Origin: Echinicola jeungdonensis
GTDB lineage: Bacteria > Bacteroidota > Bacteroidia > Cytophagales > Cyclobacteriaceae
Direction of reading: 5' to 3'
DNA length: 64,000 nt
NCBI RefSeq assembly: GCF_030409905.1
Contig: NZ_JAUFQT010000001.1
Span: forward strand, 642,001-706,000
Shown here: one piece after another, positions 2,512 through 31,202 of the stretch
How positions within the stretch are numbered: position 1 is the first letter of the stretch
How the letters are laid out: each line of letters opens with the position of its first letter
Translations under genes and position numbers: made by a program
The notes under the pieces: model-generated
What the model saw: the letters and a program-made list of their open reading frames with translations, nothing else
Databases searched by the model: none
Told to the model about the DNA's origin: nothing

Positions 2512-2612
2512 AACGGCTTGCGAAGCTCCTTCCATTTCGCCCAAGAGGATCCTGGTTAAGGGCCGAAAGCCTTGAATATTACATTCGACCACCTTAAGAT
2601 TTATGCAATGTT
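2512..2612. repeat. attC-like palindromic site 1 (degenerate)
   Basis: A 101-bp segment starts with TAACGGCTTGC and ends with GCAATGTTA. The ends pair imperfectly (AACggcTTGC against the complement AACatTGC). It has the AAC...GTT frame and position (between two small genes) of the better-preserved sites further right, but its inner arms pair poorly. The call rests on family resemblance to those sites. Confidence 0.5.
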
Positions 2613-2626
2613 ATTTTAAGTGATTT

Positions 2627-2887
2627 TTATTCTAATTGATTAAGTCTTTCAATAGCAAATTTTCTGATTTCTGGATTCTTGTCTGTTTTGGCTATTTCAC
2701 TAAGACTTGGTTCAAAGGTCATTTTGCTAATCGCTACTTTCCTAACCTCAGGATCCTTGTCTGTTTTGGCTATTTCTGTTAGGTATGGCCCAAAGGTTAT
2801 TTTACGAACAGCACCTTTTCTAGCCCCAGAGCTTAGATCTGTTGTGACAATAACATAGAGAAATGAATCAGAATTTGATTTTCTCAT
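2627..2887 (-). CDS. Small HEAT-repeat-like protein
   Basis: This 86-residue protein of unknown role contains two tandem units of about 27 residues that are nearly identical: AVRKITFGPYLTEIAKTDKD and AISKMTFEPSLSEIAKTDKN, each followed by PE(V/I)RK. The pattern (paired helices with a conserved D-P/N-E-R-K turn) is typical of HEAT-like repeats that bind proteins. The first 20 residues do not fit the repeat and may be a false extension, or the remnant of a longer protein. It lies just after an attC-like site (GTT at 2610-2612), consistent with being cassette cargo. Nothing shows a partner. Confidence 0.5.
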   Translation of the reverse strand: MRKSNSDSFLYVIVTTDLSSGARKGAVRKITFGPYLTEIAKTDKDPEVRKVAISKMTFEPSLSEIAKTDKNPEIRKFAIERLNQLE

Positions 2888-3360
2888 TTGATTGGGTCTT
2901 GTTTATTTTCCCATTTCGTAGTTCTCCACAATTAATAATATCAACCAAGAATAGACTGTCACTCTCAATCTTATAAATTACCTATAGCCTCTCCAACCAT
3001 TAAAAGATGCACCATCTCGACATTTAAGTCCAAAAAGTTACTCTGTTTCTGCTTAGCCTTGTCGTTGTAAAAATCGTTCAAGAATCAGGTCATAAGAGGC
3101 TATTGTGTCCTCTCCATAAATCACATAGTCGGGCATTTGTGGACTTGCAATAATTTCTATCGTCCAAAATGGCAGAACACAAATTATTATATGTTTGATT
3201 GTTTTTTTGTTATTGCATTGCTCCCAAATGGCTTTTGGCTGTTTTCAAAGCATTTCCTCTCAAACCACCATGAAGTTGGAAGGGCTACAAACCTTGATAA
3301 TTAGCATTTTATCTGCCATTTCAAATAAAAAATGTAGGTACTGCTCTTTTTTTAATCTAA
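2888..3360. other. Intergenic region with a coding remnant
   Basis: There is no intact gene. On the minus strand, about 3060-3180 encodes a protein-like stretch (IASPQMPDYVIYGEDTIASY, then DLILERFLQRQ) without a start, followed by stops. It is probably a fragment of an unidentified gene. A plus-strand frame at 3195-3413 overlaps the 3' end of the next gene and is not credible. Confidence 0.4.
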
Positions 3361-4440: not shown

Positions 4441-4497
4441 TTCCCATGATATAATCTGCTCATTTTAGATTTAAAACCAAAGCATATAAATCATGGA

Positions 4498-5530
4498 GTG
4501 GAGGCTCCTACTAAGATATTCATTGGAATCGATGTTCACAAGCAGCAATGGAGCGTAAACATCTTTTCAGAACATGCTCACCATTGCACCTTCAGCAAGC
4601 CTTCTCAGCCGCATGTACTGAAGAAATACCTGGACCGTTATTTTCCTGAACACGAAATTCCCTGCGGTTAGGAGGCCAGCAAATTCAGTTTTTGGTTTTA
4701 CAGAAAGCTACAATTCTACAGCTAAGCCTGCAACGCTATCAATTCGGCAGACCCTCCTTCCACCAACAAAGAAAGTAGTGAGAAGACCAATCCGGTGGAC
4801 AGCAGAAAGATAACCAAAGGGTTTCGGGGGCATGAAATCCATGTTCCCAATATGAAAAAAAGGGGACCGTCACCACTTCCAGTACAGAAAGAAATTCTGG
4901 GCAGACCTAGTCAAAGTTGACCACCGTATTAAGTACAAATTGCTCCAGAACCAGATCAGTACCGCTCTCAAATAAGACAATACCTTCTGGACCAAGGCCT
5001 TTCTGTTCTTGTCATAAGAAGTGGAGATGCCTTCTTCCAGATGCCGTCAATACCTTGACCAGTTACTGTAAAAGTACGATTATAACCTGACACATTTTTA
5101 TAAAGTATCCATAGAGGTTCGAAAGTCCCAACGAAAGCTCAAGTACAAAATCAGGGAGAAACTGCTTCGGGGCATACCTGGTACCGGCTCCTTGATCACC
5201 GTCCAGCTGCTCACTGAAATCGGCGACATCAAAAAGCTCAGGAATTTCAGGCAGTTCAACAGTTATATTGGCCTTAAACCGGTGGTACATTCCAGGGGTG
5301 ATTATGACCGGAAAGGATATATGACCTATCGCTGGCGCCGGGAATTGAAAAGCTCCCTGATCGAATGCACCTGGACAACAATCCAGCGGAGTCCAATAAT
5401 GCTGAAATGATACCAGGAACTCTTTGAGCAACACCGGTAAATGGGCCATTGTCATCCTAGCTCTAAACTGTTGTCCCGTTTCTTCAGGGTCCTGAAGGCA
5501 GGAGAGGGTTGTCGGAATCAATGGCTATTC
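4498..5530 (+). pseudogene. Degenerate IS110-family transposase
   Basis: Translation from a GTG near 4498 gives the IS110 N-terminal DEDD start (KIFIGIDVHKQQWSVNIFSE) followed by several stops and frameshifts. The C-terminal part (5102-5410) still reads as the transposase IS116/IS110/IS902 domain: LLRGIPGTGSLITVQLLTEI, then GDIKKLRNFRQFNSYIGLKP and DRKGYMTYRWRRELKSSLIE. The final helix is again out of frame. An intact enzyme would be about 320-400 residues and would act with a bridge RNA from the flanking non-coding DNA. Too many lesions exist for activity. It adjoins the half attC-like site at 4405 and the mercury cassette at 5543. Confidence 0.85.
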
Positions 5531-5570
5531 AAAGAGGCCATTGTTAGCTGCTTGGACTTTCTTTTTTCCT

Positions 5571-5777
5571 TCAGCAACATTTCTTGTTTTGTTGAATTGG
5601 CGGACATTTTACACTTCCGTAGCTGCAATATACGCAACAGTCACCTTGTTTCGGTTTCAATACGGTTTTACAATTTTCACACTCATAAAAGTATTGACAA
5701 GCATCAATCGGCATAGTTTCCTCTTTTTTGTGTCCGCAGTTAGGGCAAGTGATTGTTGATTGCAAAATAACTTCCAT
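5571..5777 (-). CDS. Small Cys-rich GDCC protein of the mercury operon
   Basis: This 68-residue protein has a zinc-ribbon-like front (CPNCGHKKEE ... ECENCK) and the conserved motif GDCCVYCSYGSVKCPP followed by a CC end, ten or more cysteines in all. Proteins of this type sit next to MerT-like transporters in Bacteroidota, and a metal-binding/relay role in Hg(II) handling is the usual inference. Its start codon directly follows the MerTP stop (5777/5778), so the two are translationally coupled; it is third in the operon. No signal peptide is seen, so it is presumably cytoplasmic. Confidence 0.75.
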   Translation of the reverse strand: MEVILQSTITCPNCGHKKEETMPIDACQYFYECENCKTVLKPKQGDCCVYCSYGSVKCPPIQQNKKCC

Positions 5778-6754: not shown

Positions 6755-6848
6755 AAGGTATTCAATTTGTTTATTTAAGCAAAAGCTAAAATAAACTTTT
6801 TTAAAAGAACCCGATTTGCCTGTCGGGTCGTTTTGCGGCCTTACCGCT

Positions 6849-6962
6849 AACGGTAAAGCATATGGCCTTTGGCGGTTTTCAAAGCCCCTTCCACTTGATC
6901 CTGATTAAGGGCGGAAAGCCCTGACTTTGGGAATACGCCCGCCAAAAGCAATTTACAATGTT
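6849..6962. repeat. attC-like palindromic site 2
   Basis: This 114-bp site starts AACGGTAAAGCATATGGCCT and ends in ACAATGTT. The inner arms pair: CCTTTGGCGG on the left against CCGCCAAAAG on the right, with unpaired bases interrupting one side. It separates the mercury operon from the lytic transglycosylase gene. The flanking GCTAAC (6846-6851) is the complement of GTTAGC at 5543-5548, giving a possible pair of ends for the mercury cassette. Confidence 0.65.
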
Positions 6963-7102
6963 GCCTGAAGTTTTTTCTCTTTTTAATAAGTCTTCAATTC
7001 CTTTTCAATTATTTCAATTGATGAAAAAATTCATTGCGAAAGGACAAATTCAAACAAACTTCTAAACCTATTGCTTTTAATCACAATTAGGATCAGTAAA
7101 TT

Positions 7103-9157: not shown

Positions 9158-9280
9158 AACGACCCTGGCTAAGAAACGTGCAGATTTTAGAACACATCGC
9201 TACCAACCGAGAACCAAATTTTATTTAGTCTACTAAATTTTATTTTACCTTGTCAGCCCGCATTTTTCTTAGCCGATGTT
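9158..9280. repeat. attC-like palindromic site 3
   Basis: A 123-bp imperfect palindrome. The left arm AACGACCCTGGCTAAGAAAC pairs with the right arm TTTCTTAGCCGATGTT, with two to three extra bases on the left (CCCTGG against CG). The right inner arm CAGCCCGCATTT is shared with sites 5 and 6. Confidence 0.8.
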
Positions 9281-9306: not shown

Positions 9307-9693
9307 TTAATTTCCTGTAAAAATAGTTTTCCTTTCGACAAAGCAAATTGGATTACCAAAAGGGTCTTTTGCGTAAAAACTTCTTTCTCCCCAAGGTCTT
9401 GTCTTTATTGAGTCTTCAACTTCAGTAAAGTCCATTTTTTTAGCTTTTTCATAAAGATTATCCAATTGATCGACCGCAAAGTATATATGGTCAGGATTTG
9501 GTGTTGTTTCTAAATTATCACCGTCTGCTTTAGAGTCAAAGCACGCTAATATAGTCCCGCCACAATCAAAGTAGTGTCGTCCTGGGGAAACTCTTTGTCC
9601 TTTTAGTTCAAATAAATTTTCGTAAAATTTTTGAGCTTTTTCAATGTCCGTCACTGGTAAAATAACTCTGTATATTTTGGGATTAACTGTCAT
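9307..9693 (-). CDS. Glyoxalase/bleomycin-resistance (VOC) family protein
   Basis: This 128-residue vicinal-oxygen-chelate fold protein has paired beta-alpha-beta-beta-beta modules: VILPVTDIEKAQKFYENLFE at the start, HIYFAVDQLDNLYEKA in the middle, and the characteristic end RPWGERSFYAKDPFGNPICF followed by VE. These small enzymes bind a metal and act as lyases, dioxygenases or antibiotic-binding proteins; the substrate cannot be told. The family metal ligands are only partly evident. It is a single-gene block between attC-like sites 3 and 4 (GTTGTATGC before it, GCGGGCAAC after it). Those ends are not complementary, so the cassette may have lost an original end. Confidence 0.85.
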   Translation of the reverse strand: MTVNPKIYRVILPVTDIEKAQKFYENLFELKGQRVSPGRHYFDCGGTILACFDSKADGDNLETTPNPDHIYFAVDQLDNLYEKAKKMDFTEVEDSIKTRPWGERSFYAKDPFGNPICFVERKTIFTGN

Positions 9694-9730
9694 ATTTCTA
9701 TTTGTTAATTTCTACGCAGTTTTGGCGGGC

Positions 9731-9781
9731 AACAAACCTTAAAATTTGGCACTTCCCCTGCCATTACTTTTACAAAATGTT
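9731..9781. repeat. attC-like site 4 (short, uncertain)
   Basis: A 51-bp segment from AACAAACC to AAAATGTT has a strong core hairpin (GGCACTTCCCCTGCC) and weakly pairing ends. It is much shorter than the others, but its GTT at 9779 opens the sequence GTTGTGTGCT, whose complement AGCACACAAC occurs at 14484-14493. That supports a real recombination site here. Confidence 0.45.
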
Positions 9782-9799
9782 GTGTGCTGTTTTTTATAA

Positions 9800-11362
9800 T
9801 TACTTTGCCCAATATTGGCCTTCTTCGGTAAATCTCCATTTAAAGTAAGAATCCAATACTTTCATTGAGTTTTTATCTGGAACAGGTGAAGCATGGGGTT
9901 TTTCATTTAGATACATAAGCTGCTGATTTTCCATTGTAAATTCTGGCCAATCAGGTAAATCTTCTGCGTTTGGATGACCATACTTGGTAAAATTAGTCCA
10001 GTAACTACTCATGGTTTCAGAAAGTTCAATATCAGACTTTGTGGTCTGAGGGTTTTCCTTGTTCAGTGTCATAAAAACATAGGGGATTTCACTTCCGTGC
10101 GGTGATCCATATCCATGCATAGGAGAATCCTCCGGGTAGTCTGGGTGCTGGTCAAAATAATAGAGGAAAACCTTTGAATTGCCTGTTTGAGCTTGTAGAC
10201 GTGCCCAAGTCCAGGAATGCCATCCAAATGCAGCTGCACTTGTAAGATCACGTGCGGATTTTGGGACTTTATTTTCTCCTACAGGAAAGACCGATAGCAG
10301 GGTGTCTGCAAATTGACCGTAACGTTGCTGAACTCTGGCAATATGTTCCTCGGGAGTTTTTGAATTGAGGAAAAATGCACACTCGTCGGAATTATAACCT
10401 ACAAGTACATCTACATCATTATATTTCCCTTCCTGATACAACTGGTATTGGTCGCCCGGTATTACATATCCATCTACGTTCGGCCATGCACCGCCCATAC
10501 CTGGATTTATCGGCAACTCTTCCACTTTAAGCTTGCGGAGCTCTGCTATGGAGGACACATTGGCTTCTTGTACAAAGCCTTTACCGCTCTTTTCTGCCTG
10601 TTGTAGTGTTTTCATATTTTCACCAGGGTAGGTGGTTTCTCTGGTCGGACCAAAGGAACCTCCACTTTGAGAAATGGCTCCACGGAACAAACCTTTGGCC
10701 AATGGCGATGCACACAACATGCTGACCGAAATTCCTCCTGCTGATTCTCCGAAAATGGTGACTTTCTCTGGATCACCTCCAAAACCTGCAATGTTATCTT
10801 GTACCCATTGCAAACCTGCAATCTGGTCAAGCAATCCATAATTACCAGAAACTTTTAGTGGGTTTTCGGCACTCAATTCAGGGTGCGCTAAGAAACCTAG
10901 TTTTCCTACTCTATAGGCAATGCTCACTACGATAACGCCTTTTTGAGCCAAATGCGCTCCGGTACATACAGGTTCAGCAGTGGACCCATAGCTAAAACCG
11001 CCACCATAAATCCAAACTAACACGGGCAGTTTTTGATTGGGCGATTGTGCAGGTGTCCATACATTCAGGTAGAGACAATCCTCGCTTTTCCCTGCAGGTG
11101 GTTCACCAGGTTGATATGGGGAGGGACCAAATTCTTTGGTCTCTTTTATGCCGTCCCATGGCTCAACTGGTGCTGGGGCTTTCCAGCGCAGTGATCCTAC
11201 TGGGGGTGCTGCAAAGGGAATACCTTTGAACACAGTAAGTCCGTTCTCTTTCAATCCCTGAATGGAACCGCCTGTAACCTCTACTATATCTAAGGTTTGT
11301 TCGGCACACGATACAATAAAGGTTAAACATAGTATGGACACAAAAAATCTTATAGTGTTCAT
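9800..11362 (-). CDS. Type B carboxylesterase, secreted lipoprotein
   Basis: This 520-residue alpha/beta hydrolase hydrolyses carboxylic esters. The signal peptide MNTIRFFVSILCLTFIVSC ends in a lipobox Cys, so it is probably anchored in the outer or inner membrane facing out. The carboxylesterase/cholinesterase core follows: VFKGIPFAAPPVGSLRWKAP, SEDCLYLNVW, VWIYGGGFSYGS (oxyanion hole). The catalytic Ser is in TIFGESAGGISVSM, the Glu/Asp partner in VGYNSDECAFF, and the His in GSPHGSEIPYVF. Length and motif order are complete for the family. The next gene on the strand, upstream, is another hydrolase fused to DUF3237, which suggests a common ester/polyphenol-type substrate, but no transporter or regulator confirms this. 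Confidence 0.92.
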   Translation of the reverse strand: MNTIRFFVSILCLTFIVSCAEQTLDIVEVTGGSIQGLKENGLTVFKGIPFAAPPVGSLRWKAPAPVEPWDGIKETKEFGPSPYQPGEPPAGKSEDCLYLNVWTPAQSPNQKLPVLVWIYGGGFSYGSTAEPVCTGAHLAQKGVIVVSIAYRVGKLGFLAHPELSAENPLKVSGNYGLLDQIAGLQWVQDNIAGFGGDPEKVTIFGESAGGISVSMLCASPLAKGLFRGAISQSGGSFGPTRETTYPGENMKTLQQAEKSGKGFVQEANVSSIAELRKLKVEELPINPGMGGAWPNVDGYVIPGDQYQLYQEGKYNDVDVLVGYNSDECAFFLNSKTPEEHIARVQQRYGQFADTLLSVFPVGENKVPKSARDLTSAAAFGWHSWTWARLQAQTGNSKVFLYYFDQHPDYPEDSPMHGYGSPHGSEIPYVFMTLNKENPQTTKSDIELSETMSSYWTNFTKYGHPNAEDLPDWPEFTMENQQLMYLNEKPHASPVPDKNSMKVLDSYFKWRFTEEGQYWAK

Positions 11363-11421
11363 TTTGTTTTTATTTGATAGTTAGTTTTATCGGTATGAAT
11401 TTGTATGACAGCACAGCCTAT

Positions 11422-11860
11422 TTAAAGCACTTTCCAAACTTGAATGGATAGGTATCCGTCCTTGCCTTCAGGTTTACAAACATAGACAGCATTATTCAGC
11501 CATGCATATTTTATTTCAAATTTTGGAGCGGCTCTAAAACAAGACACTTCCAGTTTTGGGTTTCGCCTAAGGGCGTATGTATCCATCCAGTATTTCCTAC
11601 ATGGATCAATACCCATCATCTGTTTTGATGGTGTAAATAGAATCCAATTCAGTACGATTAAGGGCTATATTGCTATATTGATAATCGGCCCCTCCTTTTA
11701 AAACAACACCTTTCATCTTAGGGCCACTAAAGGCACCACCTGTAATGGGAATGATGATCCTATCCCCATAAGGAGTAACTCCTACGAACATAGGTTCATC
11801 TATGGTTACTTGCAATTCCCCAACAAATTCTAATGCTGGTGGAGTAAATTCTAATTTGGT
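11422..11860 (-). pseudogene. DUF3237 domain, decayed 3' part of the hydrolase gene
   Basis: Directly after the hydrolase stop codon the same frame continues with TKLEFTPPALEFVGELQVTI, then DEPMFVGVTPYGDRIIIPIT and GAFSGPKMKGVVLKGGADYQ, which is a DUF3237 domain. A one-base shift follows near 11612; the next frame reads LIHVGNTGWIHTPLGETQNW. A second shift near 11540 leads to RAAPKFEIKYAWLNNAVYVC and the family end GKDGYLSIQVWKVL. So the ancestral gene encoded hydrolase plus DUF3237 in one protein. The nonsense codon (TAG at 11861-11863) and two frameshifts have destroyed the second domain. Confidence 0.8.
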
Positions 11861-12745
11861 CTATTTTCCAGTTTCGGTATTAAACCCTTTTGCCTTAATT
11901 GACCATCCTGGATATTTTGACAAATCATTATTCAGAAAAATATCAGAATTATCTTTGTTCTTAAATTGCCAATCCAGCCAGTCAAGCGTCATTTGGGCAA
12001 AAGACCCACCATATTTCTCAGAAAAAGTTGCCCCATGACCGGCCGTGGTATGATTAGCAAAAACAACAGGTACATGGTGGATTCGATCATAATCTAAAAT
12101 GGCATTTTCGTAGGCAATATCAGACTTTCCTCCTATCATATAGATGATAGGGGCATGTAACATTTTCAATGATTCTGAACTCGCACCAGCCATGGCCATG
12201 TTACCCATGCCGGCATTCAAAATCAAATAGGTCTTTATCCGTGAATCATAAGCAATTCGAAGGGTTTGTGCCCCGCCACATGAGTGTCCGCCTGCTGCTA
12301 TTTTGTCCAGGTTTACATTATTGTAATAGTCATTGCCTTTTGTTCTAGCTTGTTTCACTATCCAGTCCAGGGCTTTCAGGAGTTCATCATCAGGAGTGGG
12401 CTCATGTACCCGCTCTTCCACGGTCATTTGTAAGGCTCCAATAGCTACAATAATGTAGCCATGAGAGGCAAGTTCTGATAACAAGCGCTCTTGATGGATA
12501 GACGAATTCATACATCCGCCATTCGCCCATACGAGTATGGGTAATTTTTCTTGCTGCTTAGCTGCCTTCTGTATATTCTCAGGTCTATATACAACAAAAT
12601 TAGGAAGAGACTTTTCTTTAACTGCAATGGATGGGTAATTGCCACTACCTCCACCGTCGACCACTTTAGTTTTAGTTACCTGTGCGTAACTGAACTTTAG
12701 TGTAAAAACTAACAGTAAAATAGTTAAATAGGGCTTCTTGTTAAT
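11861..12745 (-). CDS. Alpha/beta hydrolase (dienelactone hydrolase/chlorophyllase-like), start codon lost or ATT
   Basis: A serine hydrolase domain: LPILVWANGGCMNSSIHQER, the nucleophile elbow IAAGGHSCGGAQTLR, an acid-bearing loop IYMIGGKSDIAY, and the His in FANHTTAGHGATFSEKYGG. The first in-frame ATG is at 12664, but the frame stays open upstream and encodes a perfect export signal (NKKPYLTILLLVFTLKFSYA, then Q) preceded by ATT at 12743-12745. The start was therefore probably ATG mutated to ATT, or a rare ATT start, giving a 294-residue secreted protein. The 3' domain is lost (DUF3237 remnant downstream), so the gene is probably decaying. The IS1182-like element lies 29 bp upstream of the ATT and may have removed the promoter. 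Confidence 0.75.
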   Translation of the reverse strand: MNKKPYLTILLLVFTLKFSYAQVTKTKVVDGGGSGNYPSIAVKEKSLPNFVVYRPENIQKAAKQQEKLPILVWANGGCMNSSIHQERLLSELASHGYIIVAIGALQMTVEERVHEPTPDDELLKALDWIVKQARTKGNDYYNNVNLDKIAAGGHSCGGAQTLRIAYDSRIKTYLILNAGMGNMAMAGASSESLKMLHAPIIYMIGGKSDIAYENAILDYDRIHHVPVVFANHTTAGHGATFSEKYGGSFAQMTLDWLDWQFKNKDNSDIFLNNDLSKYPGWSIKAKGFNTETGK

Positions 12746-12794
12746 TAGCTAAATCACTGACTCTTAATAAACAGGGTTGCGAAAAAATAACTCA

Positions 12795-12845
12795 AAAACC
12801 CCGAAAATCGTCCAAAAGGGCTTTTTCCGGGGTTTTCTTTTTCGT
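12795..12845 (+). terminator. Hairpin blocking entry transcription into the IS
   Basis: Arms AAAACCCCG and CGGGGTTTT flank a 24-nt loop, followed by CTTTTTCG. Placed upstream of the transposase start, it fits the anti-impinging-transcription terminators common in insertion sequences. Confidence 0.6.
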
Positions 12846-12871
12846 ATTTTTTGTTTGCAGACAAAAATACT

Positions 12872-20033: not shown

Positions 20034-20169
20034 CCGTTGACGAAGACTTTTTTTTCCATGATGTTATTTATTTAATGGTAAAACATGGAGTGAATTTAGG
20101 GTAAATCACTGAAAATAAATTGGTTAACTGTTCAAAATCAAATAGCTACCGACGTAGGAGGTTTTGTTC

Positions 20170-22058: not shown

Positions 22059-22539
22059 AAGCATTTTCAATGGGAGCCTGGGCCATGGACATACCGGCAA
22101 GCCGATACCGTGTATTTTGACACGTCCCCCAATCCACAGAGGAATTTCACCTCACTGGGGCCCTATCTCCATCCCTTGGCGGATCATATTTCTATGCCGC
22201 ACTCCAGATCGCAACTCAGCGTTTCCGCCTCCAACAACCTGACCCGAATTCACATTCGCGGTATTAAATCCTCACTAACGCAAGGGTTAGGGGGAAGATT
22301 GAACAAACGTAAGTGTATGAAGACAGGGACTTTAATTATCAACTTTATTACGATACTTCTATATATAATTATAGGGGTATCAGCAGACAACTTGACAGCA
22401 GAACTGTCAGCCTTGGCATCCTTATTGAGGATAGTCAAGGAAAGTGTTAACTTAAACCTTACACCAACAAACCTTTTCTAATTGCTCAGAAATACTTTGA
22501 AGCATTATTCACTAGTCAACTAATATGCCAACCTGAAAA
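22059..22539 (-). ncRNA. Candidate structured ncRNA upstream of the reverse transcriptase
   Basis: These 480 bases between hsdS and the RT have no credible ORF but are richer in G+C than most local intergenic DNA. They hold several clear hairpins: GACAG-CAGAA-CTGTC (22394-22408), CTAAC-GCAAGG-GTTAG (22275-22290), CGTGT-ATTTTG-ACACG (22109-22124) and CGGC-AA-GCCG (22095-22104). Several classes of defence RT use an RNA encoded directly upstream as template. Position and structure suggest that here; this is inference, not proof. Confidence 0.4.
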
Positions 22540-23847
22540 TCAGGACAATATGGCAGACTCAGGCTCCAACGCCTCCCGCAACACCTGCTGCAAAAGCAAC
22601 TCATTCTGCTGCTGACTTTCTTTGATGCTGGCCTCCAACTCATCACAATAGGCCATTAACTCATCCAACTTAACTACTATGCGTTGTTGTTCAGAAAGTG
22701 GGGGTAATGATAATAATAGAGCATTGAGTTTGGTCGCATTAACATTTGGTTGACCAGCACCCCAAGCTGCTTCATAAAGTTGTTCCCAGTAAAAAGGACT
22801 TTCCAAAAAATATTTTAGAAAAGAGGCATTTAATGATTTTGAAGGGATTATCCTGATTAGATATGACGCAAATAAAGTTGTGTTAGGTGGCTCCTCATTC
22901 ACAAGGAATGACTTTCCGATTGTCCCTCCTGTACGTGCAATGACTATATCGTTAATGCCTAATTTGTAGCTTAAAATGTCTTTCTCTTTATAATTGCAAC
23001 CTGGAACACTTTCCCAATTAACGCTATTGTCTTGAATATCTGTTATCCTCAGTAGCCTTACTTCCTGTAGGATAGGATTAGCAGAAGCATTGAATCCATA
23101 ATGAATGTTATTTGAAATTACACCCAGCCTACACCACCTCCAATTCTCAGGAATTTCAAAAGGTATTTCCTCTTCGGTAATGGGTGGCAGATGTTTTTGC
23201 TTCTTGATTTTCTTTTCCTTTATCAAGCGTTCTTTCTCGGCTTTGATTTTTTCAAGCAGCACCGAAGCAGTCTCGTCATTGATGTCTTGTGGTACCAACC
23301 TGCCCTGCATGGCTTCCCGTAAAAAGGCATGTCGAAGTTTTTTGACCATTTCAAGTTGGTGTTCTATTTCTTCTCCTAGATCGTTACTTTTTTCTTCAAG
23401 TACTGAGTGTTGTTGAACAAAATCTATTTGAGCCTCAATTGGAGGAATAGGTATTTCAACTTTGGCAATTTCCTTCATTGGTAAGGTCACATTGGCCATG
23501 CCTTTCATTCTGCTAACCAATTCCTTCTCTCTGTTCAGATCTAAAAAGCGGAATAGATAGTCAGCTCTTAAAACATTTTCATCTTTTGGGATAACGGCAC
23601 AGAGAATATTTCCAACAGCAAATTTTCCTGATTGAAAATGGATTCGCTTTAAGCTTTTGTGACCATGACCTGTTGAAGACACTAGTGGAATGATAACCGC
23701 ATTGCCTTCAAAATGAAACTCGTTGTGGGAAAGTCTTTCTTCGGCAGTAACTACTAAAGGAAATTCGCCTGGAGTTGCTTTTTGAATTCCAATCTTGCCT
23801 TTCTCAATATGGCATAAATCTCCTAATGTTTTCGTCTTCCAAATCAT
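22540..23847 (-). CDS. hsdS: Type I restriction system specificity subunit HsdS
   Basis: This 435-residue subunit recognises the bipartite DNA target for the HsdMS methylase and HsdRMS nuclease. It has two target-recognition domains: the first about 1-145 (KTLGDLCHIEKGKIGIQKAT, VEIPIPPIEAQIDFVQQHSV) and the second about 240-410 (PFEIPENWRWCRLGVISNNI, LPPLSEQQRIVVKLDELMAY). Each ends in the conserved P-P-L/I-x-E-Q-x-x-I spacer helix. The central helix includes LRHAFLREAMQGRLVPQD. It overlaps hsdM by 4 bp. The TRDs are full-length, so the enzyme is probably functional; the target sequence cannot be read from the protein. Confidence 0.93.
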   Translation of the reverse strand: MIWKTKTLGDLCHIEKGKIGIQKATPGEFPLVVTAEERLSHNEFHFEGNAVIIPLVSSTGHGHKSLKRIHFQSGKFAVGNILCAVIPKDENVLRADYLFRFLDLNREKELVSRMKGMANVTLPMKEIAKVEIPIPPIEAQIDFVQQHSVLEEKSNDLGEEIEHQLEMVKKLRHAFLREAMQGRLVPQDINDETASVLLEKIKAEKERLIKEKKIKKQKHLPPITEEEIPFEIPENWRWCRLGVISNNIHYGFNASANPILQEVRLLRITDIQDNSVNWESVPGCNYKEKDILSYKLGINDIVIARTGGTIGKSFLVNEEPPNTTLFASYLIRIIPSKSLNASFLKYFLESPFYWEQLYEAAWGAGQPNVNATKLNALLLSLPPLSEQQRIVVKLDELMAYCDELEASIKESQQQNELLLQQVLREALEPESAILS

Positions 23848-25280
23848 TGAACAGCTTCTCTAATATGATTTAGTAGTTTGTGGCTTCTATCAAAAGAAGA
23901 GTCTAGCATAGTCATAAGTTCAGCACTTGAATGTTCAACTTCCTCTTCTTTCTTATTTGGGTTGTTTATGTCTAAGTCATAATTTCTACCAATAATTGTT
24001 TGAATATCTACCTTCCAAGCAAGTTCATTTTCAACCCGATTATTCCACCAGTCCTTAATAGGTGCAAATTCTGAAAGCATGAGTGGTTGCGTTTTACTGT
24101 AGCTTTTTTGTCCTTCTGGTAAACGGTGTTCATAATACCAGACTTCTTTGGTGGGTTCACCCTTCGTAAAGAAAAGTAAGTTGGTTGCCACCGTTGCATA
24201 AGGTTTGAAAACAGAATTTGGTAAACGGATAATGGTGTGCAGGTTGCAATCTTCTAGTAACTTTTTTCTCACTCTTTCTTTTACACCATCTCCAGTTAAT
24301 GAACCGTCAGGTAAAACAATACCCGCCCGTCCGCCATTTTTCAGCAAATGCACCATCAGCACCAAAAAGAGGTCGGCACTTTCCTTGGTTCGGTAATTCT
24401 GCGGAAAGTTGTTTTCGTTGTTGTTGGCTACAATGCCCCCAAAAGGTGGGTTAGCTAATATCAAGTTTACCCTGTTCTTTTCGGTGTAGTTGCTCAGCGG
24501 TTGGTCTAAACTGTCACGAAACTGGATGTTGGGTACTTCCATGTCGTGCAAAATCAAATTGGTGGTTGCCAGCAAATACGGAAGCGGTTTGTATTCCCAA
24601 CCCACAATGTTTGTGGCAATGCTTTCGCGTTCTTCTACGCTGTTGGCTTGTTTTTTCAAATGCTCTATGGCAGCCGTTAAATAACCACCTGTTCCGCAAC
24701 TCGGGTCTAGAATCTTTTCGCCCAATTGCGGATTCATCATTTCGCAGATAAACTCAGTAATCGATCTGGGTGTATAGAACTCACCACTTTTGCCTGCACT
24801 TTGGAGTTCCTTCAAAATGGTTTCGTAGAGTTCGCCAAAAGCATGGCGGTCTTTGGCAATGTTGAAGTCAATTTCGTTGAGCTTGTTCAACACCTTGCGG
24901 ATGTTGATGCCGCTTTTCATGTAGTTGTTATTGCCGTCAAACACCTCACGCACCAGTAAGGCACGTTTGTTTGCCAGGTCATCACTCATGCCCACTTTTA
25001 GGTTTTTGAGCGTTGGGAAGAGTTTTTGATCTACAAAAGCTTGCAGCTCGTCACCCGTCATACCTTCATCATCACCAGCCCATTCTTCCCAATGGAATTC
25101 GGCAGGGATAGGGCTTTCGTAATCGTCTTTGATAATTTCTAATTCCTTGTCCTTGTCGGAAAAGATTTTCAAAAAGAGCATCCATCCCAACTGCTCAATG
25201 CGTTGTGCATCACCGTTCAGTCCAGTGTCTTGCCACATGATTTTGCGGATGCTGTCTATGATTCCTTTGAGGTTTGCCAT
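23844..25280 (-). CDS. hsdM: Type I restriction system DNA methyltransferase subunit HsdM
   Basis: This 478-residue N6-adenine methyltransferase begins with an HsdM helical domain (LGWMLFLKIFSDKDKELEII). The SAM-binding motif I-type segment is GEKILDPSCGTGGYLTAAIE, the catalytic motif is LILANPPFGG (NPPF), and upstream of the fold is ELYETILKELQSAGKSGEFY-TPR, typical of type I M subunits. It overlaps the PRTase stop by 1 base at 25280 and hsdS by 4 bases, so it lies in a tight operon. Confidence 0.95.
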   Translation of the reverse strand: MANLKGIIDSIRKIMWQDTGLNGDAQRIEQLGWMLFLKIFSDKDKELEIIKDDYESPIPAEFHWEEWAGDDEGMTGDELQAFVDQKLFPTLKNLKVGMSDDLANKRALLVREVFDGNNNYMKSGINIRKVLNKLNEIDFNIAKDRHAFGELYETILKELQSAGKSGEFYTPRSITEFICEMMNPQLGEKILDPSCGTGGYLTAAIEHLKKQANSVEERESIATNIVGWEYKPLPYLLATTNLILHDMEVPNIQFRDSLDQPLSNYTEKNRVNLILANPPFGGIVANNNENNFPQNYRTKESADLFLVLMVHLLKNGGRAGIVLPDGSLTGDGVKERVRKKLLEDCNLHTIIRLPNSVFKPYATVATNLLFFTKGEPTKEVWYYEHRLPEGQKSYSKTQPLMLSEFAPIKDWWNNRVENELAWKVDIQTIIGRNYDLDINNPNKKEEEVEHSSAELMTMLDSSFDRSHKLLNHIREAVQ

Positions 25281-25810
25281 TATGTTGTTTTTAATATTAC
25301 TGCTCCAATTATATAAGCGGTTGAATATTTTTCTTGAAGTGCTAACTCCATAGCACGGAATGTAGAACCCTTAGAATAAATATCATCCACTAATAATATA
25401 GAATCAATTCCTTCAGGCATATCATCTGAGCTTTCACTAAGATATATGTTGTCCAGAAGTTCATCATCAGTCATTTCATTTGTTATTGTAATGGCTTTAA
25501 ATGTCTCTGCTTTTTGAAAGAATTCTGAAAGGTCAATCTTATCTGAGAACCTTTCTCTCATTTCGTTTCTAAGATGTCTATTGAATGGCTCTGTGTGACT
25601 TGGAGCCACAGCAAAAGCATCAAACTCTAAAGCACTTACGTTATCTGCTAATTCTTTGAGAATGTTTTTTCCTTCTACTCTGTTCCATAGAGACAATAAA
25701 TCGTCTGCCATTTCTGGTTGATGGATTTTTGCAATTCTGTACCTGTGTGGGATTGCATACTTGGTCGTTTGGCCACCCTTGAATTCAGATAAAAAAACTT
25801 TTAATTCCAT
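25280..25810 (-). CDS. Phosphoribosyltransferase-like protein inside the R-M operon
   Basis: This 176-residue protein has a PRPP-binding signature near residues 135-155 (GIDSILLVDDIYSKGSTFRA) and the PRTase fold around it (ALEFDAFAVAPSHTEPFNRH early, STAYIIGAVILKTT at the end). ComF/orotate-type enzymes use this loop to bind 5-phosphoribosyl pyrophosphate. It sits between hsdR and hsdM with no gap (25810/25811 and 25280), so it is a co-translated part of the system, not a passenger. Such proteins are not a standard R-M subunit. It could be a nucleotide-level sensor or an effector that consumes or modifies nucleotides. The early hood region is unrecognised. Confidence 0.75.
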   Translation of the reverse strand: MELKVFLSEFKGGQTTKYAIPHRYRIAKIHQPEMADDLLSLWNRVEGKNILKELADNVSALEFDAFAVAPSHTEPFNRHLRNEMRERFSDKIDLSEFFQKAETFKAITITNEMTDDELLDNIYLSESSDDMPEGIDSILLVDDIYSKGSTFRAMELALQEKYSTAYIIGAVILKTT

Positions 25811-28201
25811 CTAAGCCGTTTTATAAAGTTCTTGTTCTAATTCCTTTACTGCTTCCAAGTATTTGGCTTTACTGCCAAACTGCTTGATGATTTCTAAGGG
25901 AGAACCATAATCCGTCAATGGTTTTACTTTCAGAATCTCCATACTTTCAATGTTGGTTACACCTTCATCTGCGTACTTATCCAAAAGTGTTTCCAGTACT
26001 TTTCGGGCTTGGTCTCCGTATTTGGTGAAGTAGTCTCGTTTCTTCACATTATTTGCACGTTCTTTTCGCGTCAATGGTGGTTGTTCAAATGCCACATGGC
26101 AAATGAGGTCGAACAAATCCACTTCACGATTAACGGCATCTCTTAAAGCTTCCACCAACACACCTTGGTCTTCCAATTCTTTGATGATCAATTCTTTCTT
26201 GTCTGTACTGTTCCAACGGTTTAGAAAATCATCCAATGAAGCGTATTGGCCTTTGATTAAGTCTTTGGTGTGGTCTTTTAGACTGGTTGTAATCGGTTTG
26301 CCGTTGTTGTCAAAGTACATTTCACGGCTTATCAATACAGAAACATCCACACCATTTACATAGACCTTTTCTCGTGGTTCATGAACTTTATCTGTGGGAG
26401 TTTGCGGTTCAGGGTATCTGATTTCAGTTTCTATTTCAATTTCTTCACCTGATTCTTCATCAATGATGGGCGTGTCAATGTTTTCTTCTTCATCCACAAT
26501 ACCGCTTAAGTCAGTGTCTTCTGAAACTGGTTTTACCCGAATCGGGTCTCCGTCAAAGTCTTTGTCGGCAAAGAGGTCGGTCACATTCCTAAAGTCGAGA
26601 ATGGTGAAATACATTTTCCCAAACTCTTCATTGATTCTGGTTCCTCTCCCCACAATCTGCTTGAATTTGGTCATCGACTTTATTTCAGCATCCAATACAA
26701 TCACTTTGCAGGTCTGAGCATCCACACCTGTGGTCATCAGTTCAGAAGTGGTGGCAATCACAGGATAAGTTTCTTCCGGATTGATGAAGTTGTCCAATTC
26801 ACGTTTTCCTTCATCATTATCTCCTGTAATCTGCATGATGTATTTGTGGTTTTTAGCAACCAGGTCAGCATTGAGATTGGATACAGCCGAACGCATACGT
26901 TCTGCATGGTCAATGTCGGTGCAGAAAACAATGGTTTTGGCAAAACGGTCGTAACCCTTCAAAAACTCGGTTAGTTTTCGGGCAACTGTTTGAGTGCGCT
27001 CTTCAATAACCAAGTTTCTGTCAAAGTCTTTTCGGTTGTAGATGCGGTCTTCAACTTCATTTCCTTTTTTGTCGGTTTTCCCTTGTTCCGGTCGCCAGCC
27101 TTCGGTATCCACATTCAGGTTTACCCGCACTACTCGATAAGGAGCCAAGAAACCATCATCAATTCCCTGCTTCAAGGAATAGGTGTAAATGGGATCTCCG
27201 AAATATTCAATGTTCGAGACTTCTTTGGTTTCTTTGGGTGTAGCGGTCAAGCCGATGTGCGTTGCTTTGTTGAAGTAGCGGAGTATTTCTCGCCAAGCAC
27301 TGTCTTTCTTTGCACTTCCTCTGTGGCACTCGTCAATGACAATGAGGTCGAAAAATTCATGGGAAAACTGTTTGTAGGCATTGGCTTCTTCGTCCGCACC
27401 AGACAAGCCTTGGTACAATGCCAAATACACTTCATAGCTTTTATCAATCATGCGGTGTTTAACCACCGTCATTTTGTCTTTGAAGTGTTTGAAGTCGCCT
27501 CTACGTGTTTGGTCAATCAAGGCGTTTCGGTCGGCCAAAAAGAGGATACGTTTTTTAGTCCCGCTTTTCCAAAGACGGTGAATAATTTGGAAAGCAGTGT
27601 AGGTTTTTCCCGTTCCAGTTGCCATCACAAGCAGGATTCTGTCTTGCCCTTTGGCAATAGCTTCAACAGTTCGGTTTACCGCAATTTGTTGGTAGTATCT
27701 TGGGCTTCTTCCACTCCCGTCAAAGTAGTAGTCTTGTGCAACTACCTTCTCAGCTTCAGGTGTCTCAATGCCCTTGTATTTCTTGTATTTCTGCCAAAGC
27801 TCTTCGGGAGAAGGGAAGTTATCATTGTCAAATTCCGTTTCAATGTTGCCGTCCATTGCGGTTCGGTCATGAAAAACAAATCCATCTCCATTGCTGCTGA
27901 AAACACAAGGAATGTCTAAAATTTGAGCATAGTCCAATGCCTGTTGCATTCCTGCTCTTACAGAATGCTTGTTGTCTTTCGCTTCAACAATAGCAATTGG
28001 AATGTTTGGTTTGTAATAGAGAATATAGTCAGCTCGTTTTCTTGTTCCTCTGGCAGTAAGTTTTCCTCTTACATAGATTTTTCCATCTGTGAAAGACACT
28101 TCTTCGAGTAGCTGAGTATTCTTGTCCCATCCTGCTTTTTCAATCGCAGGTGTGATGAACTTGGTGCATATATCTCTCTCTGATAATGTTTTCTTATTCA
28201 T
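25811..28201 (-). CDS. hsdR: Type I restriction enzyme R subunit HsdR
   Basis: This 796-residue ATP-dependent translocase/nuclease has an N-terminal PD-(D/E)xK nuclease (RADYILYYKPNIPIAIVEAK; about 54-73). The SF2 helicase core follows: Walker A in LLVMATGTGKTYTAFQIIHR, Walker B DLIVIDECHRGSAKK, motif III HIGLTATPKE, motif VI KFKQIVGRGTRINEEFGKMY. The C-terminal domain (about 620-796) contacts HsdM. The length suits the shorter EcoEI-like group. Its start overlaps the XRE regulator by 8 bp. All catalytic motifs look intact. Confidence 0.95.
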   Translation of the reverse strand: MNKKTLSERDICTKFITPAIEKAGWDKNTQLLEEVSFTDGKIYVRGKLTARGTRKRADYILYYKPNIPIAIVEAKDNKHSVRAGMQQALDYAQILDIPCVFSSNGDGFVFHDRTAMDGNIETEFDNDNFPSPEELWQKYKKYKGIETPEAEKVVAQDYYFDGSGRSPRYYQQIAVNRTVEAIAKGQDRILLVMATGTGKTYTAFQIIHRLWKSGTKKRILFLADRNALIDQTRRGDFKHFKDKMTVVKHRMIDKSYEVYLALYQGLSGADEEANAYKQFSHEFFDLIVIDECHRGSAKKDSAWREILRYFNKATHIGLTATPKETKEVSNIEYFGDPIYTYSLKQGIDDGFLAPYRVVRVNLNVDTEGWRPEQGKTDKKGNEVEDRIYNRKDFDRNLVIEERTQTVARKLTEFLKGYDRFAKTIVFCTDIDHAERMRSAVSNLNADLVAKNHKYIMQITGDNDEGKRELDNFINPEETYPVIATTSELMTTGVDAQTCKVIVLDAEIKSMTKFKQIVGRGTRINEEFGKMYFTILDFRNVTDLFADKDFDGDPIRVKPVSEDTDLSGIVDEEENIDTPIIDEESGEEIEIETEIRYPEPQTPTDKVHEPREKVYVNGVDVSVLISREMYFDNNGKPITTSLKDHTKDLIKGQYASLDDFLNRWNSTDKKELIIKELEDQGVLVEALRDAVNREVDLFDLICHVAFEQPPLTRKERANNVKKRDYFTKYGDQARKVLETLLDKYADEGVTNIESMEILKVKPLTDYGSPLEIIKQFGSKAKYLEAVKELEQELYKTA

Positions 28202-28388
28202 GCTCAGATTTGATTAGTTCTTTGGGATCAACGTCAAGAATCTTGGCGATTTCAAAAAGTATTTCAAGTCTCGGTTGTTGTCTGTTCTGCACATAAGAGT
28301 TCACCATGTTGTAACTCTTTCCCAGCTTCTCCGCTAACCAAGTTTGTTTAATTCCTTTTTCTTCAAGCACTTCTTTGATTCGATTCAT
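28194..28388 (-). CDS. XRE-family HTH regulator of the R-M operon
   Basis: This 64-residue protein from the ATG at 28388 (MNRIKEVLEEKGIKQTWLAE) is a compact helix-turn-helix of the XRE/C.-protein type: KQTWLAEKLGKSYNMVNSYV with the recognition helix NMVNSYVQNRQQPRLEILFE. A longer open frame to 28688 adds 100 residues without sequence character, so I reject it. Overlapping hsdR by 8 bp, it probably delays or limits restriction expression like controller proteins. It is the first gene of the defence operon. Confidence 0.8.
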   Translation of the reverse strand: MNRIKEVLEEKGIKQTWLAEKLGKSYNMVNSYVQNRQQPRLEILFEIAKILDVDPKELIKSEHE

Positions 28389-28713
28389 TGCTCTCAAATT
28401 ATTGGCTTCTAAATTACAATTATATCTCAAAATATAAGATATAAAACGAGAATTATTCTTGGTATCGGTGGGTGGGTGATTTGGCTCTTTTGTAAAGCTT
28501 GGGTTGTGGGCTGGCTTGAGCGGCTTTGCAAATGTGCCAAATGCGGGTTGGCAGAGAAATTTTAAAAAATGCGAAGCGGGGGAAATAGAAATCTTGTCAT
28601 TCACTGTCGAATGATAAAAGCACGGTTCAGTCGGTTTGTCTGTCCAGTTGCTCCATATGTTTCTTATTTCAGTTTCACTTCTTATCAATGTTCAGCCTGT
28701 CCTTTTTTGCATG
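28389..28713. other. Leader region upstream of the defence operon
   Basis: About 325 bases without a gene, probably holding the operon promoter. It has GC-richer blocks (GGCTTGAGCGGCTTTGCAAA TGTGCCAAATGCGGGTTGGC) of a kind also found near 20390-20460 beside the other end of cassette E. These look like cassette-associated sequence, but I cannot show pairing. Confidence 0.35.
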
Positions 28714-28722
28714 ACGCACAAC
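28714..28722. repeat. Cassette E end (ACGCACAAC) cut by IS91-like copy 2
   Basis: ACGCACAAC is the complement of the cassette start GTTGTGCGT at 20291. The element begins directly after the AAC, the same register as at copy 1. Confidence 0.7.
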
Positions 28723-28729
28723 GTAAAGT

Positions 28730-28795
28730 GTTTTAAACGCAATCTAGGCAAAAAATAAACTATTTTCTTAAGACTATCAAGATTGCGTTTAAAAC
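28730..28795. repeat. Subterminal hairpin of IS91-like copy 2
   Basis: The same perfect 16-bp inverted repeat as in copy 1 (28730-28745 and 28780-28795). Confidence 0.85.
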
Positions 28796-29005
28796 ATAGT
28801 TGGACGGAGCCGGTGAACTGCTATGGGCATTTGTCTTTCATGGATCTTTTCTTGGCGGGAGTTTTCAGGAGGTTCTTTGGTTTCGCTGTTTAAAGCTTCT
28901 AGTTTGATTGATGGTTTTGCTGGAAAAAGGCATATTTTTCCCTGGGAAACCTTTTCCCTCCAATCTGTTCTTCATGATGTCAATGAACGTCCCGTTTATA
29001 AAGTT

Positions 29006-30181
29006 TCAGGGGCCTTTTTCTTTTGGTGAAGCAATCCCGAACACCATTTTTCCCCGTTTACAGCAGGGGCAAAGGAAGAAGTCCGGGCCCAGTACCTCTT
29101 CAAGTATCTCGTAAGTGGTCAGTCCCTGGTAGAAGGAGATGTACCCTGTCTTTTTCAGCAAGCTGAAGCAGGTTTCCATTTTGGTCCTGCTGTTTGCCGA
29201 GGCCATGATCCCGTAGTACCTGATCTTGTAAAATCCAGAAGGGAGGATGTGCTGCATAAACCTCCTTACAAACTCGTGGCAGCTGAGGCTCATGGTCCTG
29301 TTCCTGTTGTCCCTGTAGTCCTTCCACCTGAAACTGACCGCTTTCCCATCAGTCCATTGGATCCTGCTGTTGCTGATGGCCACGCGGTGGGTATACCTTC
29401 CCAGATAGCTGACCACCTGGTTTGCCCCCCTGAAGGTCTTTTTGATGTAGACATGCCAAAACTTTGCATAGGCTTCCCGCCTGAGAAGCCTTGGGTCGGC
29501 AAACAGTTTTGCCTGCTTTTCCGGTATCCTGAGAAGGTTTCCTTCCAACGCCCTGATAAGTTTTTCCATAAATACGCCCCTGTAAATAGCTGACAGTGCC
29601 TTCACCGGAACAAAGAACTTTTTATGTGCGACGATCCACTCCTGCCCATCGCTGTCCAGTCCCCCGGCAGGAACAAGCATGTGGATATGTGGATGGTAGG
29701 ACAGGGACTGTCCCCATGTATGCAGCACCGCCATACAGCCGCTTTCAACCCCCAGAAAAGCGGGGTTCAGGGCAGCCTTTTTCACTGCGGCCGAAGAGGC
29801 TTCAAACAGGAGCTTGTAACCATACCGCTGGTTGGTATAAAAAAGCGGCCTGAGAAAGTCCGGGACGGTGAACACTACGTGAAAGTACCTCACCGGCAGC
29901 AACCTGCTCCTGAGCTTTTCTACCCATACCTGCTGTTTGATATACTGGCACTTGGGACAATGGCGGTTCCGGCAGCTGTTATAGCTCGTTTTGGTATGGC
30001 CACAGCTGTCACATGCCAGGGTATGGGAACCCATTTCAGATGTCCTGCAGGAAATGATGTCCAGATAGGCCTTGTACTGGGCGGTACACGGGCTGTTTCC
30101 TGAAAGAAAGGATTCTTTCTGCCCCAGAAGGATATCGGAAAGTTCTACCCCGCTGTTCCTCTTGTTAAGGATATCCATCAC
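29006..30181 (-). CDS. IS91-family (HUH/Y2) transposase, copy 2
   Basis: Identical in protein sequence to the copy at 18052-19227 (391 residues, zinc motif, HUH in YHPHIHMLVP, Y-x3-Y in YLGRY). One silent base difference at 29627. It starts within the recombinase stop (ATGA). Confidence 0.95.
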   Translation of the reverse strand: MMDILNKRNSGVELSDILLGQKESFLSGNSPCTAQYKAYLDIISCRTSEMGSHTLACDSCGHTKTSYNSCRNRHCPKCQYIKQQVWVEKLRSRLLPVRYFHVVFTVPDFLRPLFYTNQRYGYKLLFEASSAAVKKAALNPAFLGVESGCMAVLHTWGQSLSYHPHIHMLVPAGGLDSDGQEWIVAHKKFFVPVKALSAIYRGVFMEKLIRALEGNLLRIPEKQAKLFADPRLLRREAYAKFWHVYIKKTFRGANQVVSYLGRYTHRVAISNSRIQWTDGKAVSFRWKDYRDNRNRTMSLSCHEFVRRFMQHILPSGFYKIRYYGIMASANSRTKMETCFSLLKKTGYISFYQGLTTYEILEEVLGPDFFLCPCCKRGKMVFGIASPKEKGP

Positions 30182-30987
30182 AGCTCGTCCAGGGGACTTT
30201 TGATCTGTGCCGGATTCAAGTTGGTCACATGCAGGTAAACCGTAGTGGTCCTGAGGGATTTGTGGCCCAACAGCTCCTGGATTAACCTGACATTGGTTCC
30301 CTGCTCAAGAAGGTGCGTGGCAAAGGAGTGGCGAAGGGTATGGAAAGAAGCATGCTTTGTTACCCCTGCGCATTCCATGGCTTTTTTTAAAACGCACTGT
30401 GCACTCTTTTCACTGTAGGGTTTGCCAGGTGTCCGGCCTTCGAAAAGATAGGTTTTGGGCCGGTAGTACCTGTAGTATTCCCGGAGCCTTTCCAACAGCC
30501 CTTTTGGCAGCAGGGTATACCTGTCCTTATATCCCTTTCCTCCCCTTACTTTCAGCTGCATCCTGTCACTGTCGATATCACAGGGCTTCAGGCTGATCAC
30601 CTCGTTCAGCCTCAGACCGGAGGCGTAGGTGAGGGCCAGCAGGCAATAATGCTTTCTGTTCCTTATGGAGTTCAGTATAAGGGATATCTCCTCTTTCGAA
30701 AAAACAGAAGGGAGGAGTTGGGGCCGTCTGGGCCGCTTGATTCTTACCGGATCCCAGCTCCTGCCCAGGACATCTTTGAAAAGTATTTTGAACGCACTGA
30801 TGGTCTGATTCACCCCTGAAGGGGACATTTTGTTGACTTCGACCTTATGGAAAAGGTATTCCTTTAACTTACCAATACTGATCTGTTCGGGGATCTTTCC
30901 AAAATGTTTGGAAACTGCCGATACAAGGCTGATGTAGGTACTGATGGTCCTGGGGGAATAGTTCCTGACCAACATTTCCTCATACAT
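30178..30987 (-). CDS. Tyrosine recombinase of IS91-like element, copy 2
   Basis: This 269-residue protein is identical to the copy at 19224-20033 except for His to Tyr in GRTPGKP(H/Y)SEKSAQ (base 30417), which is outside the catalytic residues R-K-HxxR-H-Y. Confidence 0.93.
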   Translation of the reverse strand: MYEEMLVRNYSPRTISTYISLVSAVSKHFGKIPEQISIGKLKEYLFHKVEVNKMSPSGVNQTISAFKILFKDVLGRSWDPVRIKRPRRPQLLPSVFSKEEISLILNSIRNRKHYCLLALTYASGLRLNEVISLKPCDIDSDRMQLKVRGGKGYKDRYTLLPKGLLERLREYYRYYRPKTYLFEGRTPGKPYSEKSAQCVLKKAMECAGVTKHASFHTLRHSFATHLLEQGTNVRLIQELLGHKSLRTTTVYLHVTNLNPAQIKSPLDEL

Positions 30988-31123
30988 CCGTTGACGAAGA
31001 CTTTTTTTTCCATGATGTTATTTATTTAATGGTAAAACATGGAGTGAATTTAGGGTAAATCACTGAAAATAAATTGGTTAACTGTTCAAAATCAAATAGC
31101 TACCGACGTAGGAGGTTTTGTTC

Positions 31124-31202
31124 AACTTGTATATATGTAAACTAAAGGTATACAAATCCAACAACCCTTCGTTGGGTTTGTATACCTTTTGGTAATTTTA
31201 TT
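31124..31202. promoter_or_regulatory. Candidate attI and integrase terminator
   Basis: These are the 79 bases between the integrase stop and IS91-like copy 2. A strong hairpin (arms 31144-31162 and 31171-31189, one mismatch, GGTATACAAA / TTTGTATACC) can end integrase transcription. Read on the minus strand and with the IS removed, the sequence runs ...TATACAAG-TTGTGCGT into cassette E. That gives an AAG|TT crossover context like the attI|cassette joint of integrons. The attI call is inference from position. Confidence 0.4.

Follow-up and report, generated by a model that had tools for sequence, protein, structure and literature searches.

What are the palindromes of about 124 bp that separate single genes and small operons along one strand of a 64,000-nucleotide stretch of Echinicola jeungdonensis (contig NZ_JAUFQT010000001.1, positions 642,001 to 706,000; hereafter the window)? 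A first, sequence-only reading had likened them to the recombination sites of integrons. We find that the palindromes are attC-like sites; the array of cassettes to which they belong begins at a gene for a tyrosine integrase (31203-32411, minus strand), and the locus very probably represents an integron-type platform of Bacteroidota, with an integrase unlike the known integron integrases and a recombination activity that we infer. This view rests on traits read from the sequence, namely the layout, the complementarity of cassette ends, stem covariation, strand bias, the attI boundary, the linkage of integrase and array, and the absence of an insert from the integrase. We call the platform a previously undescribed integron variant. 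The integron-like interpretation was borne out by an integrase, an attI-like site, stem covariation and cassette-end complementarity; the array itself had been recognized from the start, and the integrase gene, attI, the complementary cassette ends and the IS91-type cassettes had gone unnoticed.

According to the mechanism that we propose, a cassette would be a free circle with a single attC and either one gene or one operon. The bottom strand of attC would fold as a hairpin, and the integrase would carry out an exchange at G|TT with attI or with another attC, leading to insertion, while the reverse exchange would excise the cassette. Such an exchange places bases of the cassette's own site behind the GTT at the cassette start, so that an inserted cassette must begin with TT, and the next nine bases or so must pair with the sequence that flanks its own attC on the left, before the AAC at the far end. 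The strongest evidence for the platform is that the bases preceding the AAC of each site complement the start of the same cassette, behind the GTT of the previous site. Such complementarity to the left flank of the cassette's own site, over 9-10 bases and GTT included, is found for five cassette starts of the window: GTTGTGCGT to ACGCACAAC (cassette 2), GTTGGCAGC to GCTGCCAAC (cassette 4), GTTACCAGC to GCTGGTAAC (cassette 5), GTTGTGGTTA to TAACCACAAC (cassette 6) and GTTGTGTGCT to AGCACACAAC (cassette 7).

For wider searches we used a covariance model, R1, trained on 15 sites from this genome and three relatives (those 15 are among the tested sites) and including the 3 bases that flank AAC and GTT on each side; it assigns the AAC/GTT pairing to the wrong columns, and its 16 stem pairs are correct. 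From 259 rows in all, omitting those in which no AAC or GTT was identified, we obtained 175 usable pairs of neighbouring sites and 227 usable stems, with 32 stems skipped. The 175 pairs, which took in 88 of 91 matches from one of the site searches, had a mean of 6.24 matches out of 9, and 135 reached at least 6/9. In the same-site control (n = 167) the mean was 3.27/9 and 19 reached that level, and 2000 shuffles gave a mean of 2.88/9 with a standard deviation of 0.11 and a maximum of 3.21. Complementarity was likewise seen in 39 pairs from named genomes, none of them training sites (mean 6.62/9; 63 of 65 matches used), in 24 pairs from arrays with divergent integrases (mean 5.38/9) and in 19 pairs from viral contigs (mean 6.47/9 against a shuffled mean of 3.51 and maximum of 4.74; 25 of 32 matches used). 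The decayed tail of the window lacks complementarity, the sites at 6962 and 2612 matching at 4/9 and 2/9, in a test that used 27 of 34 matches from the window and close orthologues and 81 of 88 from integrase-downstream stretches, opposite-strand, partial and weakest matches being omitted.

A near-constant palindrome length between genes could also reflect dispersed repeats, either repetitive extragenic palindromic (REP) elements or miniature inverted-repeat transposable elements (MITE), or else intergenic transcription terminators. We regard this explanation as exceedingly improbable: it is contradicted by end complementarity that spans whole genes and by the linkage of the sites to a single integrase family, on its 3' side, and we rejected it on layout, complementarity and the wobble bias described below. 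The sequence-only reading had itself proposed that palindromes scattered singly through the genome would mark ordinary repeats. This outcome did not occur. When the genome was searched with R1 (150 of 1780 candidates scored), nearly all matches were grouped or linked to IS91-type elements: among 21 matches with E<=1, eight lie in the window array, five in a second array and two form a pair, another five have a complete or partial IS91-type recombinase copy no more than about 3 kb away, and a single weak match (E 0.15) is isolated. The count of five sites of 123-125 bp held, and we place them, from AAC to GTT on the minus strand, at 20293-20170, 17069-16946, 15890-15767, 14615-14491 and 9280-9158; two 82-bp sites (28801-28720 and 17847-17766, minus strand), which terminate two IS91-type element copies, had been overlooked. 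The core was also correctly described as unlike RYYYAAC/GTTRRRY, since GTTRRRY fitted 20 of 230 sites, RYYYAAC 15 and both 2. The observed core is AACA (228/230 sites) followed at the other end by GTT, and site length is mostly 123-124 bp (5th-95th percentile 76-127), a length that the model favours.

The stems themselves point to a folded strand. Two-sided compensatory changes were found in 14 of 16 stem pairs across 15 sites. Imperfect pairs were mostly A.C on the top strand, that is G.T on the bottom strand: we counted 372 of these against 60 of the reverse kind and 154 other mismatches in the 227 stems. Site by site, 191 favoured the bottom strand and 3 the top, compared with 606 bottom and 559 top wobbles in control hairpins, which overlap each other, from nearby and related DNA. 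One fixed position beyond GTT had the same bias (60 bottom-wobble, 24 other and 0 top-wobble). Because R1 counts a top-strand G.U as a pair, the bias of the model opposes this result. The excess of bottom-strand wobble suggests that this strand, as in attC, seems shaped to fold, and it disfavours RNA terminators, which should favour pairing of the top strand. Folding of the bottom strand, suggested earlier as a check, gave a z of -3.78 for the best of six sites and of -0.6 to -1.8 for the other five; with single-site signals this weak, folding energy was dropped as a sole test.

The integrase, an open frame of 402 aa, matches PF00589 (E 7e-44), NF040815 (218 bits, cut-off 220) and TIGR02249 (205.9 bits, cut-off 265), and the catalytic residues R, K, H, R, H and Y (the tyrosine being Y384) were unchanged across 22 aligned sequences. 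Translation likely starts at the ATG of residue 35, at about 32309. Residues 33-106 (32094-32315, minus strand) weakly resemble the HARP (SMARCAL1) and XPB damage-recognition domains, with a weak sequence match and a seemingly common fold; this N-terminal domain would probably aid binding of the folded site. An insert of 40 residues that is present in IntI is absent here. The distance between the two patches was 64-69 residues in 31 Bacteroidota integrases with both motifs (one was unmeasurable), compared to 106 in IntI1 and its Calditrichia neighbour, and IntI4 residues 182-243 were left unmatched. By family, the integrase is related to Xer and IntI, but it has no counterpart of IntI's extra insert.

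These data bear on the idea that the locus is merely a standard integron, run by a normal IntI, in an unusual host, which we consider improbable. The locus does share with an ordinary integron the cassette logic, attI, the attC-like hairpins and the bottom-strand bias, and the core-binding and C-terminal parts of the integrase do align with IntI4. In addition, one attC of Polaribacter phage P12002L was recombined by IntI1, the top strand giving no recombinants, according to the parts of that report considered here (PMC9892861). In a 14-kb stretch of P12002L we found three R1 sites (E<=1.4e-4), one of them beside a methyltransferase gene; they may include the attC of that partly consulted report, although the tested site was not matched up, and sites of this type may therefore be usable by IntI1. 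Against an ordinary integron stand the missing insert, a tree that separates the Bacteroidota integrases from IntI1 with moderate support, the TIGR02249 score below cut-off, the departure from the core consensus, and an array co-directional with the integrase.

How widely the proposed integron-type platform occurs was examined by genome searches in which a share of the candidates was scored (11 per genome for the Bacteroidota survey, up to 101 for the controls). R1 matches were found in at least 151 of 296 Bacteroidota genomes and 87 of 140 genera, the genome count being a lower bound on account of this partial scoring. None of 34 control genomes, none titled Bacteroidota, had a match; taken alone, an empty result from a run that lacks a positive is no evidence. 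Integrases (E<=1e-60) were present in 104 of the 296 genomes, and integrase and sites occurred together: 87 genomes had both, 17 the integrase only, 64 sites only and 128 neither (p 2e-17).

The layout differs with the type of integrase, which was assigned by the start of the match to the model. The comparison took in the 150 sites of the list and its stronger integrases, with IS91-type copies and weaker rows set aside. Of the sites at most 45 kb from an integrase, all 40 near a HARP-type integrase (22 integrases) lay downstream of it and on its strand. Near simple integrases, 13 of 14 such sites lay upstream on the opposite strand, a divergent arrangement (6 of 7 integrases); the exception, in genome G141, is a 372-residue open frame and may be of HARP type. 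In classical integrons the array lies upstream of the integrase and diverges from it. Of 65 matches in 80 named loci, 61 lay downstream on the integrase's strand and 4 upstream. Sites were present in 13 of 19 integrase-downstream stretches and, in a separate set, at 5 of 6 close orthologues, G028 being the exception.

The platform was also met on a plasmid and on contigs filed as viral. A Chryseobacterium oryzae plasmid (NZ_CP094530.1, L231) carries a HARP-kind integrase (48% identical), an attI and a VOC-family gene as first gene of its array, as well as two IS91-type elements and a restriction block. Contigs filed as viral (L234, L238, L243 and L273) hold arrays of R1 sites. The first three have a simple-kind integrase match with sites upstream on the opposite strand (L234 and L238 have some further on too), and L273 has a short integrase match with sites downstream on the same strand.

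The attI-like site of the window (31127-31190, minus strand) consists of an imperfect palindrome followed by CATATATACAA and was recognized by eye in comparison with six orthologous loci; the recombination point would be G|TT at 31126/31125. By eye, seven orthologous loci and the plasmid have such a palindrome and then a sequence ending in ATACAA, AAACAA or AAGTAA before GTT. The boundary was measured between genomes G003 and G008, where 74 of 76 bases agree up to GTT and 28 of 100 after it. Similarly, a cassette of about 399 bp is common to two species (G010 and G005; 93%), and its homology stops at GTT on both sides; it is preceded by an attC in one species and by an attI-like sequence in the other. 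At loci with divergent integrases, 4 of 6 have a different common attI-like sequence.

Two cassettes of the window contain an IS91 transposase gene (428.5 bits) adjoining a recombinase gene. Eight IS91-type copies were found in this genome, all starting with GTTGAACAAAACC; seven are complete and end with the same short hairpin before GTT, while the 308-kb copy lacks the hairpin end, its alignment covering only 2173 bp. By eye, five copies start after an attI-like and two after an attC-like sequence, with L053 ambiguous. In genome G439, the nine loci read of sixteen copies start alike, and eight have the same end, the ninth being cut by the stretch; an R1 site precedes two of the nine, and the others come after an attI-like sequence or after neither kind. 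On the C. oryzae plasmid, the two IS91-type elements stand in inverse orientation at attC-like sequence. We read the IS91-type element as a cassette bringing its own recombinase, and our guess is that the transposase would be used to produce single strands.

An alternative is that the arrays were made by the IS91-type element through rolling-circle transposition, with the integrase as a bystander. Most of the eight copies here adjoin attI-like or attC-like sequence, and an IS91 transposase could provide single strands. We nevertheless judge this highly improbable: the IS91-type recombinase (E<=1e-70, in 14 of 148 genomes of the family) is rarer than sites (151/296) or integrase (104/296) in the phylum, and 8.3 kb of array read in L048 has no IS91-type element. 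The second array of this genome (G000 C1:305121-326368; L051, L099) has as its first element an IS91-type cassette at an attI-like sequence, and no integrase gene was found within 2.6 kb upstream of it. Two small contigs (G000 C10 and C11, around 12-15 kb) each hold partial recombinase copies and one site. Repeats of 1.65 kb in L097/L042 are not whole cassettes and were left unused.

Several results weigh against an integron-type platform driven by this integrase. Recombination was not observed, and the integrase is without the IntI additional domain that classical surveys required. Of the 151 genomes with sites, 64 yielded no integrase (E<=1e-60), and of the 104 with an integrase, 17 yielded no site. 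No site (E<=0.05) was found in 6 of 19 downstream stretches, namely those of G051 (1.2 kb read), G015, G017 and G012 and two loci of G040, nor in 5.5 kb beyond the G028 integrase (55% identical). Integrase matches extending into the N-terminal part were also seen in metagenome-assembled genomes titled Undinarchaeales (L125), Firmicutes (L132) and Spirochaetota (L134), with no R1 site there. The complementarity threshold was failed by 40 of 175 pairs; missed short sites and insertions probably account for some of these. Finally, the Bacteroidota -7 promoter motif is TANNTTTG, and a look-up near attI in eight stretches found it in one and not in the other seven. As regards G040 (L085, L098), it has 11 integrase matches, and neither of the two loci gave a convincing R1 site (E 0.65); its sites may belong to another type.

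The array in the window, all on the minus strand, runs from attI through an IS91-type cassette, an 8.5-kb defence cassette, a second IS91-type cassette and three small cassettes to a decayed tail with an inserted transposase, and its cassettes would be transcribed from the integrase side. Cassette 1 (28722-31125) comprises the IS91 transposase gene (29006-30181), an IntI-like recombinase gene (30178-30987) and the 82-bp attC (28720-28801). Cassette 2 (20172-28721; 8.55 kb, attC 20170-20293) encodes a helix-turn-helix protein (28194-28688), HsdR (25811-28201), a ShosT-like protein (25280-25810), HsdM (23844-25280), HsdS (22540-23847) and a DRT2-type reverse transcriptase (20472-22100); a group II intron as first reading of the latter frame was rejected, the frame being DRT2-like. 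This defence block of type I restriction-modification, ShosT-like and DRT2 genes behaves as a single cassette. Cassette 3 (17768-20171, attC 17766-17847) is the second IS91 and recombinase cassette, 99.9% identical over a 2408-bp alignment to 28719-31126. Cassettes 4 (16948-17767; gene 17085-17741, attC 16946-17069), 5 (15769-16947; open reading frame (ORF) 15889-16431, attC 15767-15890) and 6 (14493-15768; GAF-domain protein gene 14598-15734, attC 14491-14615) are short. Cassette 7 (9715-14492) is disrupted, with an esterase gene (9800-11362), an ORF (11861-12664) and half an attC from about 9783, and is interrupted by a DUF772/DDE transposase gene on the plus strand (12851-14224). Beyond it, a glyoxalase-family gene (9307-9693) is followed by the attC at 9158-9280, a training site (R1 99.9 bits), and three diverged attC-like sites outside the training set lie at 6846-6965 (E 1.1e-4), 2487-2615 (E 3e-4) and 1795-1925 (E 1.2e-6). 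By eye, 4460-5600 resembles a degenerate transposase remnant amid decayed cassettes. In an Rfam scan of the window no family reached its gathering score.

Cargo was counted in cassettes of at most 3.5 kb from pairs with at least 6/9 matches. These 122 cassettes had a median length of 914 bp, and the longest ORF lay on the array strand in 117 and on the opposite strand in 4, with a median of 31 nt between the cassette start and the ORF and of 15 nt between the ORF and AAC. Pfam families in 114 scanned cassette proteins were scattered, the commonest having 4 members. Matches to defence models, of which one protein can have several, included mad3 (4), AriA (3), AbiL (3), Gabija-like (2) and type II restriction (2).

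In the part of the IntegronFinder 2.0 paper considered, one complete integron is given for a Bacteroidetes genome, that of Salinibacter ruber M1 (PMC9024848). A 2008 survey, again as far as the portion consulted goes, selected integrases by the IntI additional domain (PMC2426708), and the phage attC work used standard detectors and IntI1, with no Bacteroidota integrase described in the same parts of it (PMC9892861). A search of the open-licence literature by titles and starts of abstracts, preprints lying outside it, returned no description of integrases of the HARP type or of an integron class spanning the Bacteroidota. Roughly every second Bacteroidota genome in the sample has such sites, so that a large pool of movable genes seems to have escaped notice. 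Among many unassigned genes, the cassettes hold some for defence (in this array type I restriction and DRT2, in others genes resembling AbiL, AriA and Gabija), and the platform is found on a plasmid and on contigs filed as viral as well. We somewhat favour the broader proposal of a phylum-wide Bacteroidota integron class, with integrases separate from IntI that would recognize the folded attC through the HARP/XPB-like domain instead of the insert, with two layouts (co-directional for the HARP type, divergent for the simple type), and with a self-moving cassette whose own integrase and rolling-circle transposase would let it travel between attI and attC. The platform appears to be a second solution for recombining a folded single strand, which makes the role of IntI's extra domain directly testable.

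Compared with known systems, the platform is closest to the integrons (IntI/attI/attC; class 1 and sedentary chromosomal), with which it has in common an attI by the integrase, co-oriented cassette arrays, AAC/GTT hairpin sites, complementary cassette ends and a favoured bottom strand. It differs from them in a Bacteroidota integrase that lacks the IntI insert and has an N-terminal HARP-like domain, in an array co-directional with the integrase, and in the core AACA...GTT. The phage-borne attC clusters, as far as the part of that study considered shows (PMC9892861), are connected to it by R1 matches in P12002L and in viral contigs with simple integrases. The simple recombinases XerA, XerC and XerD provide the closest profiles (NF040815 218 bits; PDB 5hxy and 4a8e), but the Bacteroidota integrase is linked to cassette arrays and attI and carries an extra N-terminal domain. 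HARP and XPB damage-recognition domains occur fused to helicases; here a domain of seemingly common fold and weak sequence likeness is fused to a tyrosine recombinase. Some insertion sequences of the IS91 family also carry an accessory tyrosine recombinase, and the elements described here resemble them in the IS91 transposase beside a recombinase gene, while differing in their attC-like hairpin end, in GTT at both ends and in their location at attI- or attC-like sequence.

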